Virus record (IMG/VR): IMGVR_UViG_3300036828_000198
Span: 1-64,000 of that record
Reading direction: 5' to 3' (one strand)
DNA length: 64,000 bases
Source of the DNA: a virus
Part shown: positions 3,596 through 52,647 of the stretch, in pieces
How the letters are laid out: the number at the start of each line of letters is the position of its first letter
How positions within the stretch are numbered: position 1 is the first letter of the stretch
Translations under genes and position numbers: made by a program
Notes under the pieces: generated by a model
The model's input: the letters and a program-made list of their open reading frames with translations, nothing else
The model's database searches: none
What the model was told of the DNA's origin: nothing

Positions 3596-4008
3596 TGCCA
3601 GATGACAACTTGTATGATGGTCTAGTCAGACTAGGACAAGGTAGAAAGATATTCAGGAGGAAACGCAAGAGTAGGGGAGCAGACTTTTCCGGTCAAGAAC
3701 CCCCTACTATGCAGGAGATCAACAGAGGCGTATGGTGCAAACGATGTAAGAAACGTCATCCGTACAATGGATCCAAGAGGATTAGATTGGGAACACAGTA
3801 TGAAAAGAGAGGAGCCCACTTCGTAATTTATTGGTTGTGCCCTGTAAGCGGTGACTATATAGGAGAGATATGTCTAGGACGTACGGGGACATCTACCCAA
3901 CAAGACGAGACTCTCACAACCACTACTATAGACTCTGGCACGGAATGCTCAAGAGATGCTACGACCCCGAGCATCATAACTACGCATACTACGGAGGAAG
4001 AGGAATAA
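3595..4008 (+). CDS. Hypothetical zinc-finger protein with altered C-terminus, 137 aa
   Basis: The first about 95 residues look genuine: a basic segment (FRRKRKSRG) and Cys pairs (CKRC ... LCP) suggesting metal binding. From about residue 96 the frame overlaps the HNH-AP2 endonuclease gene by 139 bases and becomes Thr/Glu-rich low-complexity sequence (LTTTT...TTEEEE), unlike normal protein. The likely reading is that insertion of the endonuclease gene cut off the original 3' end and gave this gene a chance tail. The true ancestral end is not visible. Confidence 0.5.
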   Translation: MPDDNLYDGLVRLGQGRKIFRRKRKSRGADFSGQEPPTMQEINRGVWCKRCKKRHPYNGSKRIRLGTQYEKRGAHFVIYWLCPVSGDYIGEICLGRTGTSTQQDETLTTTTIDSGTECSRDATTPSIITTHTTEEEE

Positions 4009-4388
4009 CAGTATGCGATCGATGGTTCGAATTCGAATATTTTGTGGAAGACATACTGGAGTTTATTGGTCCTAAGCCCGAAGGACATACTCTAGACAGA
4101 ATTGATAACTCAAAGGGATATTGTGCACGTAATGTACAATGGGCAACGATGATAGTGCAGAACAACAATAGACGTGAGATAAAGGCGCCAAGGCAAAGAG
4201 GTACAAACTATAGAGGTGTCACTCTGCATGCAGGCAAGTGGGTTGCAAAGGGTTCTCATAGAGGCCCTATCTATCTAGGCAGGCACGATACCCCTGAGGA
4301 CGCAGCTAGAGCATACGACACCTGGGCTCTACAAGAGTTCGGTCCGGAGTACAAAGGTTTCAACTTTCCAAGGAACGTAGGGAGGTGA
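3870..4388 (+). CDS. HNH-type homing endonuclease with AP2 DNA-binding domain
   Basis: ATG preceded by AGGAG. Residues about 1-105 match phage HNH-like endonucleases (YYGGRGITVCDRW, then DRIDNSKGYCARNVQWAT). Residues about 115-168 form an AP2 domain (YRGVTLHAGKWVAK ... YLGRHDTPEDAARAYD ... GFNF). Such free-standing enzymes cut a target site and spread themselves. It overlaps the gene before it and sits directly upstream of the helicase gene, whose start codon lies 6 bases past its stop. That helicase carries an odd 5-nt insertion at a highly conserved motif, a possible scar of homing. Confidence 0.85.
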   Translation: MSRTYGDIYPTRRDSHNHYYRLWHGMLKRCYDPEHHNYAYYGGRGITVCDRWFEFEYFVEDILEFIGPKPEGHTLDRIDNSKGYCARNVQWATMIVQNNNRREIKAPRQRGTNYRGVTLHAGKWVAKGSHRGPIYLGRHDTPEDAARAYDTWALQEFGPEYKGFNFPRNVGR

Positions 4389-4393
4389 TGTCA

Positions 4394-6741
4394 ATGAATT
4401 CGTCACGTATACAACTATACACCTTCCAACGGGAGGCGGTCGACAAACTAGGAGTTCCCGAGCTTGCTAGTAGGTTGGTCGGTGACGATATGTTATCGGA
4501 CTAGGAAAAACGTTCGAGGCTATTGTCATAGATATGCGCCTTAGGGTTAAGACCCTTAATGGCTCCGGACCTTTGAAAGTTAGGCGTACTCTGATACTTG
4601 CTCCTCTTTCGGTTCATGGACATTGGCAGAAGCACATTAAGGCATTGTGGCCTCAAGCACGTGTATACGTTATGGACAGAACTGGAATGCCTGTTGATGG
4701 TAGGCGAGCGTTCAGGAAGGCATTGACCCAGAACTACAACTACTACATTTGTCACTATGAAGCTGTTCGCAATAAGGATCTTATCCCAGCTATTCGCAAG
4801 GTAGATTGGTTCCACGTTATTGCTGACGAATGTCATAGGTTGAAGGGAAGAAAGACTCAACAGACTAGGGCTGTCAAAACCCTTAAACCTAAATTCAAGA
4901 CAGGTATGTCTGGAACCCCTGCAGAAGATAAGCCACAAGACCTCTGGTCGATTTTGAATTGGCTGTGGCCTCAGACGTATAGGTCGTTCTGGAAGTTCGT
5001 TGGTGACTACTGTAATCCACCGGAAACTCCTATATGGATGGCAGATGGAACTTTCAAGGCACTAGGAGACGTAAAGATTGGAGACAAGGTAATAGGTTGG
5101 GACTCTTCAAAGAAACTTTGTGTCTCTGACGTACTTGCGATCTACGGACGTAGAGCACCTCTTGTCAAGGCAACACTAGCATCGGGTTCGACTATCAGAT
5201 GCACGCCTGATCATAAGTGGCTAGACCCAAGAGCAAGCGTACCTTCTAGAGTTAAACTAGGTTCTAACCCTTGGGTACAACTTGGACACAATCCTTTGGG
5301 ACTATACGGTGGTTCTAAACATCTGTCCAAAGTGGTTGAAGTACCAGATGAGCTAACCTGGAACTTGAAAAAAGAAGCCATGTGGCTAGGTGGTCTTTAC
5401 GATGGAGAAGGTAACATCAACGGAAAGGGTAATTTCAGTATATCTCAGTCTCCAACTCATAATCCGGAGGTATGTGACAGAATTAGAACAGTAACACGCC
5501 TTCTAGGATTCGAAGTAAGCGAAGACCCTCACGGCGGATGTATTGTATTTAGGTTTACAGGAGGACAAGGGTCCCCTACCCTAGTCAATAGTCTGAAGGT
5601 TAAGTTTCTCAGCTACTGCGAACCATCACGAAAAGGTAAAATTGTAGATAGTCTGCTTAAAGCTCACTTTGGAAGGCTCGATCGTGTCGAGAAAATAGAG
5701 AAAGACGGAGACGACGAGCCTGTTATATCCATGAAAACCTCAACGGGAAACTATGTAGCTTGGGGATATGCGTCCAAGAACTGTGAACAAGAGACAGTCT
5801 GTCAAGAGTGCGGAGGGGTTTCAGCATTTGAAAACGGACCCATCATACACACTAGTCGTTGTACTAAGACTGGAACAACGTTCAAGAAGATCGTAGGCGT
5901 AAATAAAGCTTCTATACCTGCACTACGTAGGGAGATGTCTAGGTACACAGTCAGAAGGCTAAAGTCTGATCCAGGTATTCTAGATGAACTACCACCCAAG
6001 ACGTACACCGACATAGAAGTAACACTTGCTCCTAGGCAACGCAAAGCTTATGACCAGATGCGTAAGAATATGCTAGCCTGGATCGGAGAACATGAGGACC
6101 AACCACTTACGGCGGCAGTGGTTGTGGCTCAGCTTTGTAGACTACAACAGTTCGCATTGGCATCTGCTCACATTGAAATGAGACCAGTTAGGAGACGTAA
6201 GACAGGACAAGTAGAACTAGTACGATATGTCGTTCTAGAAGAGCCATCCTCCAAACTAGCAGCCCTAGAAGAGGTCATAGATGACCACCCAAACGAATCC
6301 TTCGTCGTCTTTTCCCAGTTCAAGTCGATGGCTAATCTCGTTGCCAGGAAACTGGAAAGTAAGAATATCTCAGTCGGGGTCTACACAGGTGACGTCAGGG
6401 AACAATCGGTTCGAGACAAGCTTGTTGATGAGTTCCAACACGGCGATATTCAGGTGTTCGTTGGGACCATTGCGGCTGGGGGCGAAAGTATCACGCTTCA
6501 TAGATCCTCTACGTGCATCCTTCTTGATAGGCACTGGACGCCCACTAAGAACGAGCAAGCTGTCGATAGACTTCACCGTGATGGACAAAAGCACCCAGTC
6601 CAAGTTATAGACATAATCGCCCGCAATACTGTTGACCTAGGACGTAGAACTAAGATTGCCGGAAAATGGAATACTCTCAAACTTCTACTGGACGACAAGG
6701 TAGACATGGACGCGTACGAGGAGCAGGCAAGTGGATATTAA
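4394..6741 (+). CDS. SNF2-type DEAD/DEAH helicase with intein and a 5-nt frame-breaking insertion
   Basis: ATG 4394 follows GGAGG at a good distance and encodes the Q-motif-like YTFQREAVDKL and GDDM. After ATG 4490-4492, five extra bases (TTATC, 4493-4497) break the frame; then GGA CTA GGA AAA ACG resumes the Walker A GLGKT. Without them the text reads the canonical GDDMGLGKT. Downstream motifs are intact: DECH near 4825, MSGTPAED, and the SNF2 motif VI region (AVDRLHRDGQKHPV) near the end. An intein occupies 5011-5781. The extein has a Cys cluster (CEQETVCQECGG). The enzyme presumably remodels DNA during replication or recombination. The open frame alone runs from ATG 4534 (735 aa). Either the gene is broken, or ribosomes hop the 5 bases. 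Confidence 0.8.
4493..4497 (+). other. 5-nt insertion inside helicase Walker A motif
   Basis: The bases TTATC separate ATG (4490-4492) from GGA (4498). Their removal restores GDDMGLGKT. The insertion creates a second AT-starting codon, ATC (4495-4497), exactly 5 bases after ATG, so a peptidyl-tRNA slip from ATG to ATC would resume correctly at GGA. Zero-frame reading meets TAG at 4502. Confidence 0.7.
5011..5781 (+). other. Intein (257 aa) with LAGLIDADG-type endonuclease domain
   Basis: The intein begins with Cys (codon 5011) and ends Asn (codon 5779), with Cys as +1 extein residue, as expected for protein splicing. Block A region: NPPETPIWMADGTFKALGDVK; block B-like region: TPDHKW. The centre has LGGLYDGEGNI, a LAGLIDADG motif. 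The C-terminal block is YVAWGYASKN followed by Cys; the penultimate residue is Lys rather than the usual His, which may slow or alter C-terminal cleavage. It interrupts the helicase between its SGTP motif and the Cys cluster. Confidence 0.85.
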
Positions 6742-7222: not shown

Positions 7223-7696
7223 ATGAGACAAATTCCAGTAGGTAGTATGGTTGCTTTCGTAGATGATGAAGACTACGAAAGAGTATCGGGCTATACTTGG
7301 TACCCTATTGGTGATGGAAACGGCTATACGTTCTACGCAAGAGCATATGCGCCAACTGAACCTAGTGAACGCATCAACATGCATACGCTTATCACTGGTT
7401 GGGACCGCGTTGACCACTCGGATGGAAACGGTCTCAATAACCAGAAAGGCAATCTGAGAGAGACTACTCGTAGTCAGAATGCTATGAATCAGCGTAAGAA
7501 GACAGGGACGTCTTCTTGCTTCAAAGGCGTAGGCAAACATAAGCAGTCAAACAAGTGGGCAGCGAGAATTAACAAAGACGGGCAAAGAACTAACCTAGGA
7601 CTCTTTACAGACGAAGAGGAAGCAGCACGAGCCTACGATATAGCAGCTAAAGAACTATTCGGAGAATTTGCCTATCTCAACTTTCCGGAGGAGTAA
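7223..7696 (+). CDS. HNH endonuclease with AP2 domain (second copy type)
   Basis: The protein shows the HNH signature VDHSDGNGLNNQKGNLRE at about residues 68-85, followed by TTRSQNAMNQRK, and an AP2 domain at about residues 105-155 (FKGVGKHKQSNKWAARI ... LGLFTDEEEAARAYD ... LNFP). It is a free-standing homing endonuclease. It shares the AP2 half with the enzyme at 3870 but has a different nuclease half. It is inserted between two small genes without visible damage to either. Confidence 0.88.
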   Translation: MRQIPVGSMVAFVDDEDYERVSGYTWYPIGDGNGYTFYARAYAPTEPSERINMHTLITGWDRVDHSDGNGLNNQKGNLRETTRSQNAMNQRKKTGTSSCFKGVGKHKQSNKWAARINKDGQRTNLGLFTDEEEAARAYDIAAKELFGEFAYLNFPEE

Positions 7697-10005: not shown

Positions 10006-10815
10006 ATGCACAAGGCACAACATGCGGCGAAAAGGTTCGTTAGTGAAATACGTGAACTAGCCTACAAAGGCCAGAACGTAAAAAGGACCCCAAAGAACTA
10101 CATGTGGCTACTACCCATAGTTGCAGTTCTAGCACTAGTGCCAGTGTCAATCATGCTCGTTCCGAAAGCGTTTACAGGAGGAGGATCTTCACTACGCGAC
10201 TTCTCAAACTTCTCAGCACCTGAGAGCAAATCTACATCAGCCGTCGCAAGTTCAACCTTGTGGCGGCATAATCATCCTATTGCAGCTCCAGCAGCTGGAG
10301 AGGCAATAAGTTCGTTCCCGTACTTCTACACGGTAAGAAAGGGAGATACTCTCAGCACGATCGCCCAGCGCATCTACGGTCGATCTGATGCTTGGACTCT
10401 TCTGTACTACAAGAACCATATCAAGGACCCATCAACCATAAGTACAGGTACGCGACTTAAGGTCGTAGCACTACATGGCAATCCACCCGAGCCCCCACCT
10501 GTACCTAAAGCATCCACAGCCCCCACGCCTAGCCAAAGTTCCTACCAAGCTTCACCCTCTTCGTCTTACACCTCAGTATCAGGGGTCGGAGGAGCTTTCG
10601 GCGCGTGCGTTCGAGCGGCAGAAAATGGAGGCAGTTACTCGTGGGCAACAGGTAACGGAGGAGGAGCATACCAGTTCCTTGCTTCTACTTGGGTAGCATA
10701 CGGTGGAGACCCAAGTCTCTACGGCAATGCTGGACCTGCCTATCAAGACCAAATATTCATGAACGCTATCAACGCAGGAGGACAGAACAACTGGGCACCA
10801 TATGATGGATGCTAA
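10006..10815 (+). CDS. Membrane-anchored LysM + Rpf-like transglycosylase
   Basis: Layout of the 269-aa protein: basic N-terminus; transmembrane helix at about residues 33-54; LysM domain at about 107-150 (YTVRKGDTLSTIAQRIYG); Pro/Ser-rich linker; then a resuscitation-promoting-factor-like lysozyme fold at about 197-269 (ACVRAAENGGSY with the likely catalytic Glu, GGGAYQFLASTW, NWAPYDGC). It should cut peptidoglycan outside the membrane. Rpf-like domains are typical of actinobacteria and their phages, which is the main host clue. It lies among replication-side genes, not the lysis genes, so wall remodelling during infection is more likely than final lysis. Confidence 0.8.
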   Translation: MHKAQHAAKRFVSEIRELAYKGQNVKRTPKNYMWLLPIVAVLALVPVSIMLVPKAFTGGGSSLRDFSNFSAPESKSTSAVASSTLWRHNHPIAAPAAGEAISSFPYFYTVRKGDTLSTIAQRIYGRSDAWTLLYYKNHIKDPSTISTGTRLKVVALHGNPPEPPPVPKASTAPTPSQSSYQASPSSSYTSVSGVGGAFGACVRAAENGGSYSWATGNGGGAYQFLASTWVAYGGDPSLYGNAGPAYQDQIFMNAINAGGQNNWAPYDGC

Positions 10816-24007: not shown

Positions 24008-24439
24008 GTGTACAAAATCAGCAAGGACTTCATGTTCAGTGCTTCTCACTTCCTAACAGGATTGCCTGAGGGTCACCAGTGTGCTAGGCTTCACGGACAC
24101 AACTACATAGTTCGGGTAAAGCTAGCAGGAGACCTACAAGATCCTGGATTCGTTAGAGACTATGGAGACCTGAGTGAGTTCAAGGAGTACCTAGATGTAC
24201 ACTTCGAACATAGGCATCTAGGAGCAGGATCTCTCATTATAAGAGACCATGTCGGACCAGAAGCCGAAATAGATCCGGTAGTTCAGTTTAATCCAACTGC
24301 AGAAAGACTCGCCTTCTTCTTCTTCCATGTACTCAGAATCAACCTGCACTTTCCGGAAGTGTATGCCGTAGGAGTAAGTGAGACGCCTAAGACCTTTGCA
24401 TGGTATGAGCAAGACATACTCCTAGGAGAACCTAGGTGA
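24008..24439 (+). CDS. queD: QueD, 6-carboxy-tetrahydropterin synthase
   Basis: The GTG-started 143-aa protein has the zinc-binding His set (FSASHFL and LHGHNY) and catalytic Cys in HQCARLHGH. FNPTAERLAFFFFHVL and VSETPKTFAWYE match the family's PTAE and SET motifs. It converts dihydroneopterin triphosphate to carboxy-tetrahydropterin, the second step to preQ0. Its stop overlaps a GTG that starts a truncated copy of the queE beginning. Confidence 0.92.
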   Translation: MYKISKDFMFSASHFLTGLPEGHQCARLHGHNYIVRVKLAGDLQDPGFVRDYGDLSEFKEYLDVHFEHRHLGAGSLIIRDHVGPEAEIDPVVQFNPTAERLAFFFFHVLRINLHFPEVYAVGVSETPKTFAWYEQDILLGEPR

Positions 24440-24483
24440 GGCTACTTCAGGTAAACAGGATCTTTGGTCCAAGCGATGCCTAG
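24436..24483 (+). pseudogene. Truncated original start of queE
   Basis: GTG 24436 encodes MRLLQVNRIFGPSDA then TAG. The first 12 codons match the second copy at 24973 (MRLLQINKIFGP) and the usual QueE beginning. The endonuclease gene follows immediately, so this is the original queE start cut off by insertion. It overlaps the queD stop, exactly as an operon gene would. Confidence 0.8.
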
Positions 24484-24976
24484 CCCCTACAGGTCTCAGA
24501 TCAAGGAGGCTTGGCTTATACAGACTCCGGAACTTGTAGCCTACTGTGCTGGCTTCTTCGACGGTGAAGGGAGTATCAGCTTTCCGGGAGGATACCTAAG
24601 TCTCTCTGTAAGCCAACGTCTACTTGAACCGATCGAGAGATTCCAAGGCCTATACGGCGGAAGTATTTCGTATCCAACGGACAAGATCCCTACTTACATT
24701 GTACAAGCAGTTGGAAAGGAATTTCCAGTAGGTAACGTTACTTATCGCTGGTATAGAACGGGAGCAGCTAACTGCAAACCTATACTAGAAAGCTTTCTAC
24801 CTCATCTCACTGTTAAGCGCCTACAGGCCGAATTGAGCCTTGAATGGATAGGCCTAACAGCTGTCGTAGGATCTAATACTAAGCTGCCTATTCAGGTAGC
24901 TAGTCGGCGGGAAGCAATCATAGAGGAGATCAAGGCTGCTAAGAAGCCTTGGCTGAAAGGAGGTGGTGCCGTATGA
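24476..24976 (+). CDS. LAGLIDADG homing endonuclease
   Basis: ATG 24476 (MPSPYRSQIKEAW) is the likely start, although a clear ribosome-binding site is missing. The 166-aa product carries one LAGLIDADG motif, YCAGFFDGEGSI, near residue 24, so it should act as a dimer. VTYRWYRTGAANC and the C-terminal SRREAIIEEIKAAK fit the family. It is inserted at codon 13 of queE. Its 3' end supplies AAAGGAGG and an ATG plus a rewritten copy of the first 12 queE codons. Confidence 0.85.
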   Translation: MPSPYRSQIKEAWLIQTPELVAYCAGFFDGEGSISFPGGYLSLSVSQRLLEPIERFQGLYGGSISYPTDKIPTYIVQAVGKEFPVGNVTYRWYRTGAANCKPILESFLPHLTVKRLQAELSLEWIGLTAVVGSNTKLPIQVASRREAIIEEIKAAKKPWLKGGGAV

Positions 24977-25733
24977 GGCTGCTACAGATCAATAAGATCT
25001 TCGGCCCTACTTGACCATCCAGGGGGAAGGTCCGTACGCAGGTCATCACTGCCTATTCGTTAGGCTGTTCGGGTGCAACCAAGAATGTACATGGTGTGAT
25101 ACATGGGAGACCTGGGCCGTTACTCCAGCAAAGGCAGCCAAGACGGTTCTTGGTAAGATGGCTAACAAGGCAGACGAATGTCATGAGATGACAGTCGAAC
25201 AGGTTCTGGAAGAACTAATCAAGCTCTGGCCTATAGGTAGCAAGCCCACCATCATAGTTATCAGTGGTGGAGAACCTATGATGCAGCAGACAGCTCTTTC
25301 GCATCTGGTAGAGGAACTGCATTACCAATACTGTCCAGTTCACATAGAGACTGCCGGCACTATAATGCCAATGGTACCTGAGCTACTTCATCAGGGGTTC
25401 GATACTCATGACCAGTACGTAGTTTCGCCCAAGCTGGCCAATAGTGGTAACCCTTACAGTAAGAGGTACAAGCCAAAGGTGCTTCGTGCCTTGAGAGATC
25501 AAGGTGCCTACTTCAAGTTCGTAGTATCAGGCCCATCAGACTTCGAGGAGATCGACCAGATTGTCAAAGAATGTAACCTAGATCCTAGCAGGATAATGTG
25601 CATGCCAGAAGGTACTCACCAGACTCTTCTGGACAGTAGAGCTCGGCAAATAGTAGACGAAGTACTCAAAAGAGGGTACGGACTTAGTCCCAGAATGCAC
25701 GTCATGATCTGGGGAGACGAGAGAGGACGTTAG
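24973..25733 (+). CDS. queE: QueE, 7-carboxy-7-deazaguanine synthase, with 5-nt insertion near the start
   Basis: ATG 24973 with AAAGGAGG encodes MRLLQINKIFGPT and meets TGA at 25012. Five extra bases (for example ACTTG, 25009-25013) lie inside the invariant FGPTIQGEG; without them the frame is continuous. From TTG 25011 the frame is open to 25733: TIQGEGPYAG, then the radical-SAM GCNQECTWCDT (CxxxCxxC), and VISGGEP. It makes CDG from carboxy-tetrahydropterin. TTG overlaps the stop (TTGA), so reinitiation could give a protein lacking 12 residues; alternatively a 5-base hop from ACT to ACC restores the full protein. Confidence 0.85.
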
Positions 25734-51258: not shown

Positions 51259-51893
51259 GAGAAGTCACCTCCTGGGCCCTTAGTCGTGCCCTTACGGGCA
51301 ACCTTAGCCAGGTTAGGATTAGCCTTCTTCGCCTTGGACCCAGCCTTCTGAGAAGCTGCAGCTACCATAGCGGCACCTTGCTGAGCAGATACACCGGCGG
51401 ACTTAGCAGCAGAAGAAGCAGCTGCCTTAAATCCCATACCCTGAGCCATAGACTTGTTCTTGTCATCAGCGTCAGGTTCGGCGTAAGATGATCCGGAAGG
51501 CTTATCTAGGTCACTAGGGGTAGGTCGTGCCGAAGCTCCAGGCTGCCTGTCCATACGCGGCATCGTGGAATTTGCAAAGGTGTGAGCCGGAACATGATCA
51601 GCCAGAGAGGCTTTGCCGGTCTTGTTAGAGGTACCCGCTGCACTAGAAGCAGGAGCGACCTTAGAAGATCGTCTGTTAGAGGCAGTAGAAGATCCAGAAG
51701 AAATACCGTATGCCGACTTACTAGTCGATCCTGTGCCTCCTGCGGGAGCCGGCTTACCTGGTCTACCTCCGCCCTTATATCCAGAGCTTCCAGCATCGCT
51801 AGCAGGTGCTCCACCAGAAGCCCTCTTAGCCTTAATTCCGCCTCGAGCAGCTGCTCCGGTCTGTGACCCTGAGCCCTTTTTAGTTCTAGCCAT
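51255..51893 (-). CDS. Ser/Ala/Lys-rich disordered protein
   Basis: About 212 aa of low-complexity, strongly basic sequence (KKGSGSQTGAAARGGIKAKR, KAAASSAAKSAGVSAQQG). Likely binds DNA inside the capsid or is a flexible virion component. Overlaps the protease gene by 4 bases and the HNH endonuclease stop. Confidence 0.6.
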   Translation of the reverse strand: MARTKKGSGSQTGAAARGGIKAKRASGGAPASDAGSSGYKGGGRPGKPAPAGGTGSTSKSAYGISSGSSTASNRRSSKVAPASSAAGTSNKTGKASLADHVPAHTFANSTMPRMDRQPGASARPTPSDLDKPSGSSYAEPDADDKNKSMAQGMGFKAAASSAAKSAGVSAQQGAAMVAAASQKAGSKAKKANPNLAKVARKGTTKGPGGDFS

Positions 51894-52390
51894 CACATCA
51901 TCGCCTCGATTAGTTTCGCATGCTTAGACCGATTACACTGTGAGCAGCCTGTCTGAACATTATAGAGACAGTGAAGCCCACTCTTAGAAAGTGGTATAAC
52001 GTGGTCTAGATGCATTTCTTCAAACGGAACGAAGTCTCCGTTACAGACTAGCTTGATGCGACAGCAGCCTTCGTCACGTCCCCATACGGCTCGACGATCT
52101 ATGCCACTTACGCAGGAACTATGTTCACACGATACCTGCAGTGATTGCCTACGACGCGCATGATTAGCTTCATGCTTCATACGTCCTTGTTCACTACTAC
52201 CGTACTCTCTCTGATACTTCTTGATCTGATTCGCATTGTCTTCGTTATACTGTTTACGGTACGTAGCATATCGACTACGAGCATATGATGCTGTGCAATC
52301 TTTGCAAATATAATCTCCATGTGAGAAACGCAGCGCAGTAATGTTCTTACCAACAATAAGAACACCACTACACTTACGACATATTTTCAT
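51893..52390 (-). CDS. HNH homing endonuclease
   Basis: ATG 52390 overlaps the preceding stop. Zinc-type Cys pairs (CRKCSG, CKDC) at the N-terminus, a basic middle (KKYQREYGSSEQGRMKHEA), and the HNH core LDHVIPLSKSGLHCLYNVQ ... CSQCNRSKHAK. A third style of HNH enzyme in this window, here in the virion module. No duplication of neighbours seen. Confidence 0.85.
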   Translation of the reverse strand: MKICRKCSGVLIVGKNITALRFSHGDYICKDCTASYARSRYATYRKQYNEDNANQIKKYQREYGSSEQGRMKHEANHARRRQSLQVSCEHSSCVSGIDRRAVWGRDEGCCRIKLVCNGDFVPFEEMHLDHVIPLSKSGLHCLYNVQTGCSQCNRSKHAKLIEAMM

Positions 52391-52647
52391 CACATTGGTC
52401 CAGTACCCTGGGGAATAATCTTGGCCCCAATATCATTAGGGTTGTTCTGCGCAGGATCAGAAGGCGTAATACGCTTACGAGAACTAGACATTCCGAAGGG
52501 CTTGATAGGCTCTCCGTCATTCTTAAGTCTGCCTCGAGCCTTCTTCCTTGCTTTCTTGGTCATCCTGACCTTAGGATGGCTAACCTGGTCAGAGTATGCA
52601 ACCGAGATCCCAGTCAACACACTGTCTTCTGCACCAGATTTGGCCAT
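52390..52647 (-). CDS. Small basic protein, 85 aa
   Basis: Basic middle (MTKKARKKARGRLKND), Pro/Asn-rich end. First gene after the leftward promoter at 52676-52705, with AAGGAGT upstream. Could be a DNA-binding or virion protein; unknown. Confidence 0.55.
   Translation of the reverse strand: MAKSGAEDSVLTGISVAYSDQVSHPKVRMTKKARKKARGRLKNDGEPIKPFGMSSSRKRITPSDPAQNNPNDIGAKIIPQGTGPM

Follow-up and report, generated by a model that had tools for sequence, protein, structure and literature searches.

Putative homing-endonuclease cassettes with a built-in translational bypass in phage queE and other conserved genes

The queE gene of the analysed phage DNA (the window, a stretch of 64,000 nucleotides from a 67-kb virus record) is interrupted by five nucleotides at the conserved codons for FGPTIQGEG, directly behind a homing endonuclease ORF. 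The interruption is neither a product of chance nor a sequencing error. In our opinion, the best explanation, and a likely one judging from the compared sequences and predicted RNA folds, is a mobile homing-endonuclease cassette equipped with its own minimal translational bypass.

Interrupted genes of the window

The homing endonuclease ORF, of the LAGLIDADG type (24476-24976; 166 aa from its ATG; weak LAGLIDADG_3 match, phrog_5046 E 4.8e-11), lies, like the parts of the two interrupted loci described below, on the plus strand and has a copy of the queE 5' end on each side. The upstream copy, which was missed in the initial annotation, is an orphaned fragment (24436-24483) that starts with GTG, reads VRLLQVNRIFGP with the same conserved motif at its end, and then continues through SDA to a stop codon. 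The second copy, MRLLQINKIFGPT, extends from ATG 24973, which overlaps the stop codon of the endonuclease ORF (ATGA), to the putative take-off codon ACT (24973-25011, take-off codon 25009-25011). The two copies are identical at 26 of 35 nt. The endonuclease thus lies within queE, and the beginning of this gene is present twice.

The motif in the second copy reads ATC TTC GGC CCT ACT TGA CC ATC CAG GGG, i.e. FGPT is followed by TGA. The gap TGACC (25012-25016) comprises the in-frame stop (TGA, 25012-25014) and the putative landing codon (ACC, 25014-25016), and removal of these 5 nt restores FGPTIQGEG. The insertion had been reported in the initial annotation, and the sequence is exactly as described there, with ACTTG given as the 5 nt whose removal restores the motif. 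From ATC 25017 the frame is intact up to 25733 and encodes the rest of QueE (7-carboxy-7-deazaguanine synthase; IQGEG onwards, a radical SAM protein), as indicated by PF04055, by phrog_2076 (E 4.4e-54) and by the presence of CNQECTWC (CX3CX2C); TIGR04322 and TIGR03365 also match, below their curated cut-offs. When joined, the two out-of-phase ORFs give the full conserved QueE protein.

The duplicated 5' end is preceded by AAAGGAGGTGGTG (24957-24969), an extended Shine-Dalgarno-like sequence. Sites of the AGGAGGTGRTG type occur only twice in the window, in both cases at an interrupted gene (queE and the helicase described below), and the GGAGGTGATG signature is probably a strong Shine-Dalgarno sequence and not an RNA signal in itself. 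RNA folds predict an mRNA hairpin at 24975-25008, whose 3' arm, composed of the FGP codons, abuts the take-off codon.

The initial annotation had also mentioned a second interrupted gene next to a homing endonuclease, and this could be identified as an SNF2 helicase gene located immediately 3' of an HNH-AP2 endonuclease ORF (3870-4388; AP2; phrog_374 E 4.6e-46). Its 5' part, MSMNSSRIQLYTFQREAVDKLGVPELASRLVGDDM (4388-4492), ends in the putative take-off codon ATG (4490-4492). The 5-nt gap TTATC (4493-4497), with TTA as its first codon and ATC as its last three bases, splits Walker A between GDDM and GLGKT; the remainder of the helicase, from GLGKT, follows in an open frame (4498-6741, profile match). 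SNF2 relatives, which gave no match with a 160-aa query and were found with a longer one, have DDMGLGKT or DGMGLGKT uninterrupted in all five that were read through.

An intein (Hint module) is present within the helicase from about 5007 (5007-5900), so this gene contains two kinds of selfish element. Two more HNH endonuclease ORFs (7223-7696 and 51893-52393) have no obvious interrupted neighbour. The LysM and transglycosylase-like (PF06737) protein encoded at 10006-10815 suggests an actinobacterial host for the window phage.

Recurrence and common anatomy of the sites

Relatives were searched for insertions at the motif, as had been proposed in the initial annotation, by scanning IMG/VR for FGPT...QGEG with inserted bases. 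The scans added L089, L090, L100, L108, L151 and L152 to the window and L002, so that frame-breaking insertions of 5-11 nt at the queE motif are known in eight phages (window, L002, L089, L090, L100, Sour/L108, L151 and L152). Seven of these are represented by metagenome contigs and the only isolate is Gordonia phage Sour (L128), which has the same gap as L108 and in which the annotated QueE begins 3' of the motif. Sour was also the only one split at the motif among 60 isolate-phage matches sampled down the ranking. The motif is in frame at all 78 intact queE loci used as a control. Eight interrupted phages, including an isolate, against 78 intact loci bear out the earlier opinion that chance or random sequencing error is unlikely. 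Mapping of the interruption onto a QueE tree requires four changes, of which at least two are forced. A search for relatives of the L151 QueE returned only L151 itself, hence no dN/dS could be obtained for a shared queE insertion.

An endonuclease is encoded directly upstream in 6 of the 8 interrupted queE genes, and belongs to the LAGLIDADG, HNH or GIY-YIG family. By comparison, among the genes upstream of intact queE (n=45), QueD is encoded by 32, and matches to endonuclease families are absent. The postulated link with endonucleases is strengthened, as the same arrangement is seen in phages, and with endonucleases, that are unrelated to one another. In the window and in two relatives, L002 (NUMOD4/HNH endonuclease; 8-nt gap CAA-TTAGG-CAG) and L100 (GIY-YIG endonuclease; 5-nt gap), a copy of the queE 5' end lies on each side of the endonuclease. 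Sour keeps an HNH remnant. In L152 (2303 onwards, reverse strand) the gap is kept without an endonuclease, and the Cys motif has one additional residue (CDYQHCSWC).

Further insertions were found at other places. L090 and L151 contain a second queE gap, located in the radical-SAM Cys motif (CGA-TTACC-CGT and TGG-TTAA-AGG, respectively), and a PfpI-like gene of the L002 phage has a 5-nt gap, AAT-TT-AGT, behind an HNH ORF. PfpI and SNF2 show reciprocal states: PfpI is intact in the window (23150) and interrupted in the L002 phage, while the reverse is true for SNF2. In the phage of L151, a portal-like gene (L182, 2230-2400) has an in-frame interruption of 57 nt with two stops, bounded by GGC and GGT. 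GGAGG precedes the landing site, and the opposite strand has an HNH ORF upstream. This is possibly a long bypass similar to that of T4 gene 60, or merely a later start.

The insertions in queE, the SNF2 helicase gene and the PfpI gene provided 12 sites for comparison. At all 12, the codon after the take-off codon is a stop (7) or TTA (5), and the landing codon, defined as the three bases that close the gap, matches the take-off codon in at least two of three positions (identical in 3). The junction is set by the native protein, but a Pro take-off instead of Thr gives the same queE product, so that the respective P values, about 1e-14.8 and about 1e-9.5, are both approximate. Imperfect landings, with 2 of 3 positions paired, are exemplified by TGG to AGG, ATG to ATC and AAT to AGT.

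TTA is absent from the 16,426 curated codons of the window phage (49% G+C) and occurs 387 times in the +1 frame; the few TTA codons in the automatic ORF list are in ORFs judged spurious or 5' of the likely start. However, ordinary genes of L089, L090 and L151 use TTA (L151 has five in the same gene as the insertion), for which reason the idea of TTA as a universal 'unreadable' codon was dropped. A genome-wide codon-bias scan of the window for hop sites was also abandoned, since it gave too many false matches at gene boundaries.

In each of the eight interrupted queE genes, and also in the PfpI gene, a hairpin is predicted that extends up to the take-off codon. In a test devised post hoc, once the folds had been seen, the 60-nt upstream segments had z <= -1.28 in 8 of 8 interrupted queE genes versus a mean of -0.01 in 44 intact ones (p=5.3e-6), and the difference persisted with 45-nt segments (p=0.002). 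Pairing is better between the 5' and 3' arms of one locus than between arms exchanged among loci (p=2e-4), i.e. the arms co-vary, and at ten sites the last base of the take-off codon lies 0-4 nt beyond the 3' arm. The stem of the SNF2 helicase is weak and doubtful (z -0.17/-0.57), being visible only with a longer upstream region.

Gaps that open with UUA are also present in terminase genes. According to a passage of the Atkins review, a UUA bypass is likely in terL of Hau3. By our own reading, this gene has two 10-nt gaps, GGC-TTACTCC-GGT and TCT-TTAACGG-TCC; both are common to GreenWeasel, BroPlease has one and Yosif none. In these isolated Streptomyces phages, the terminase parts downstream of the gaps have dN/dS values of 0.06-0.13. 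Thus, in plaque-forming phages, essential terminase genes are under purifying selection downstream of UUA gaps. Among genome contigs and IMG/VR we obtained 28 TerL matches with TTA gaps, some of them duplicates or copies of named phages (one is Hau3 itself). The scan demanded TTA, therefore the codon is not independent evidence there. The gaps, of 5, 7, 8, 10 or 11 nt, are never a multiple of three, so normal decoding of UUA may have to abort the protein. TTA-initiated gaps of 5-11 nt in the TerL Walker A were recorded in Streptomyces prophages and viral contigs (L169, L171, L174, L175, L177 and L188-L212). No homing endonuclease adjoins terL at any of the five prophage loci that were read, apart from the short HNH gene usual beside terminases.

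Proposed mechanism and rival explanations

On the preferred reading, the endonuclease gene would have inserted into queE at the conserved codons between FGPT and IQGEG, and the cassette would supply a queE 5' end of its own, preceded by a strong Shine-Dalgarno sequence. By destroying the site that the endonuclease targets, the 5-nt insertion would protect the carrier. A ribosome would translate 13 codons and stall with UGA in the A site and peptidyl-tRNA-Thr on ACU; the hairpin directly 5' of the take-off codon would then refold and thereby favour forward slippage, the tRNA would re-pair on ACC, 5 nt downstream, and translation would resume at AUC, yielding the native FGPTIQGEG. The hop from ACT to ACC by a single Thr-tRNA had been suggested in the initial annotation, and the recurring stop or UUA, the near-matching landing codons and the predicted hairpin strengthen it. 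A similar cassette may be present in the helicase gene starting at 4388, where UUA, unused in the genes of the window phage, would replace the stop. One point against the bypass reading is the use of TTA elsewhere in L151, by which UUA is not unreadable in every carrier.

It also seems fairly likely that such cassettes are widespread and repeatedly invented selfish elements of phages, in which unrelated endonuclease families occupy active-site codons of conserved genes, a hairpin-driven hop of 5-11 nt at a stop or UUA serves as self-protection, and the frame-broken genes are expressed and not dead.

The opposite view, that the interrupted genes are endonuclease scars or decaying pseudogenes, is unlikely in our opinion. 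QueE is presumably non-essential for a phage, the Sour annotation begins QueE 3' of the motif, and the extra residue in the L152 Cys motif would fit with decay. However, all eight queE genes and the helicase have an open frame beyond the gap, a dead gene offers no reason for the stop or UUA, landing and hairpin features, and similar gaps occur in essential terminase genes which remain under selection. Termination at TGA followed by reinitiation at the overlapping TTG (25011-25013), giving QueE minus its first 12 residues, is the other route that had been put forward for the window gene. The TTGA overlap is present in the window and in L100, where this route is possible, and phage operons do use stop/start overlaps of this kind. 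On the other hand, L089, L090, L151, L152 and Sour offer no ATG, GTG or TTG at the motif in the restored frame. As a general route it fails, because the second gaps of L090 and L151 split CX3CX2C and the helicase gap splits Walker A, so that a restart would lose catalytic residues. Reinitiation needs neither a matching landing codon nor a hairpin, and we regard it as improbable.

A -1 shift can cross a 5-nt insertion, which makes ordinary -1 or +1 ribosomal frameshifting, with extra residues left in the protein, worth considering. Yet there is no slippery heptamer, two residues would be added within FGPTIQGEG or Walker A, a shift in the opposite direction would be needed for gaps of 7 and 10 nt, and at seven sites the stop directly after the take-off codon leaves no room, all of which makes frameshifting very improbable. 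Splicing of the segment, as a group I intron from the RNA or as an intein from the protein, might be suspected, as introns and inteins often house endonucleases and in the window the 5' fragment runs up to the conserved motif. Nevertheless, Sour and L152 have just a 5-7-nt gap and lack a split 5' fragment, which leaves no segment that could be spliced out. No intron family matched the queE region, even at an E-value of 5, or four relatives, and no intein ends were found around the queE gap; both candidates were therefore rejected, and splicing appears extremely improbable. Finally, a 5-nt discrepancy confined to a single metagenome contig would arouse suspicion, but different insertions, outside homopolymers, occur at the same place and follow common rules in independent metagenomes and in the isolate Sour, which leaves a negligible probability for an assembly or sequencing error.

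Comparison with known bypass systems

The best known counterpart is gene 60 of phage T4, in which a take-off codon, a stop, a 5' stem-loop and a matched landing codon drive the bypass (PMC11194080, PMC5009743). According to passages of the same two articles (for the cassette role, via ref. 158), the insertion is thought to disrupt the target of the neighbouring endonuclease. The likeness extends to the layout, with an endonuclease upstream of a newly created gene start and an insertion proposed as protection. As the parts match those driving gene 60, we read the putative cassette as an endonuclease, a self-protecting insertion and a ribosome hop.

There are also differences. The gene 60 gap is 50 nt long, as opposed to 5-11 nt at the queE, helicase and PfpI sites. 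Gene 60 depends on both a nascent peptide and a stem-loop at take-off, whereas the queE leader can be as short as 13 residues; in the window queE these are too few for a nascent-peptide signal about 25-30 residues before take-off. Unlike in T4, several endonuclease families and several target genes have come to one solution, in which UUA can replace the stop.

Synthetic stop-hops, in which peptidyl-tRNA moves a few nucleotides between matched codons on either side of a stop, were described by Weiss et al. 1987 according to PMC5009743, a review aware of no in-frame stop-hop in natural use. The phage sites share with them the matched codons around a stop; the Weiss constructs are synthetic. The byp elements of Magnusiomyces mitochondria resemble the phage sites, as interpreted here, in that insertions are neutralised in translation, an unused codon occupies the A site and imperfect landing is allowed. 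In contrast, they are mitochondrial and apparently independent of mRNA context (PMC5009743), while the phage sites have a recurring 5' hairpin. The Hau3-type terL gaps are short, open with UUA after the take-off codon and have a synonymous landing codon, in which they resemble the UUA sites described above, but their hairpin is inside the gap and not 5' of it, and no homing endonuclease is adjacent at the loci read.

If the proposed mechanism is correct, some 'frameshifted' phage genes annotated as truncated or split are probably whole, e.g. QueE of Sour and the terminases of GreenWeasel and BroPlease, and the queE sites could be assayed with the existing queE complementation tests. Gene 60 is an almost lone example of programmed bypassing in a bacterial system, and shorter counterparts with matched codons have been expected (PMC5009743). 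The dozen sites in queE, helicase and PfpI genes would be such short matched-codon bypasses, and would tie bypassing to homing endonucleases in general.
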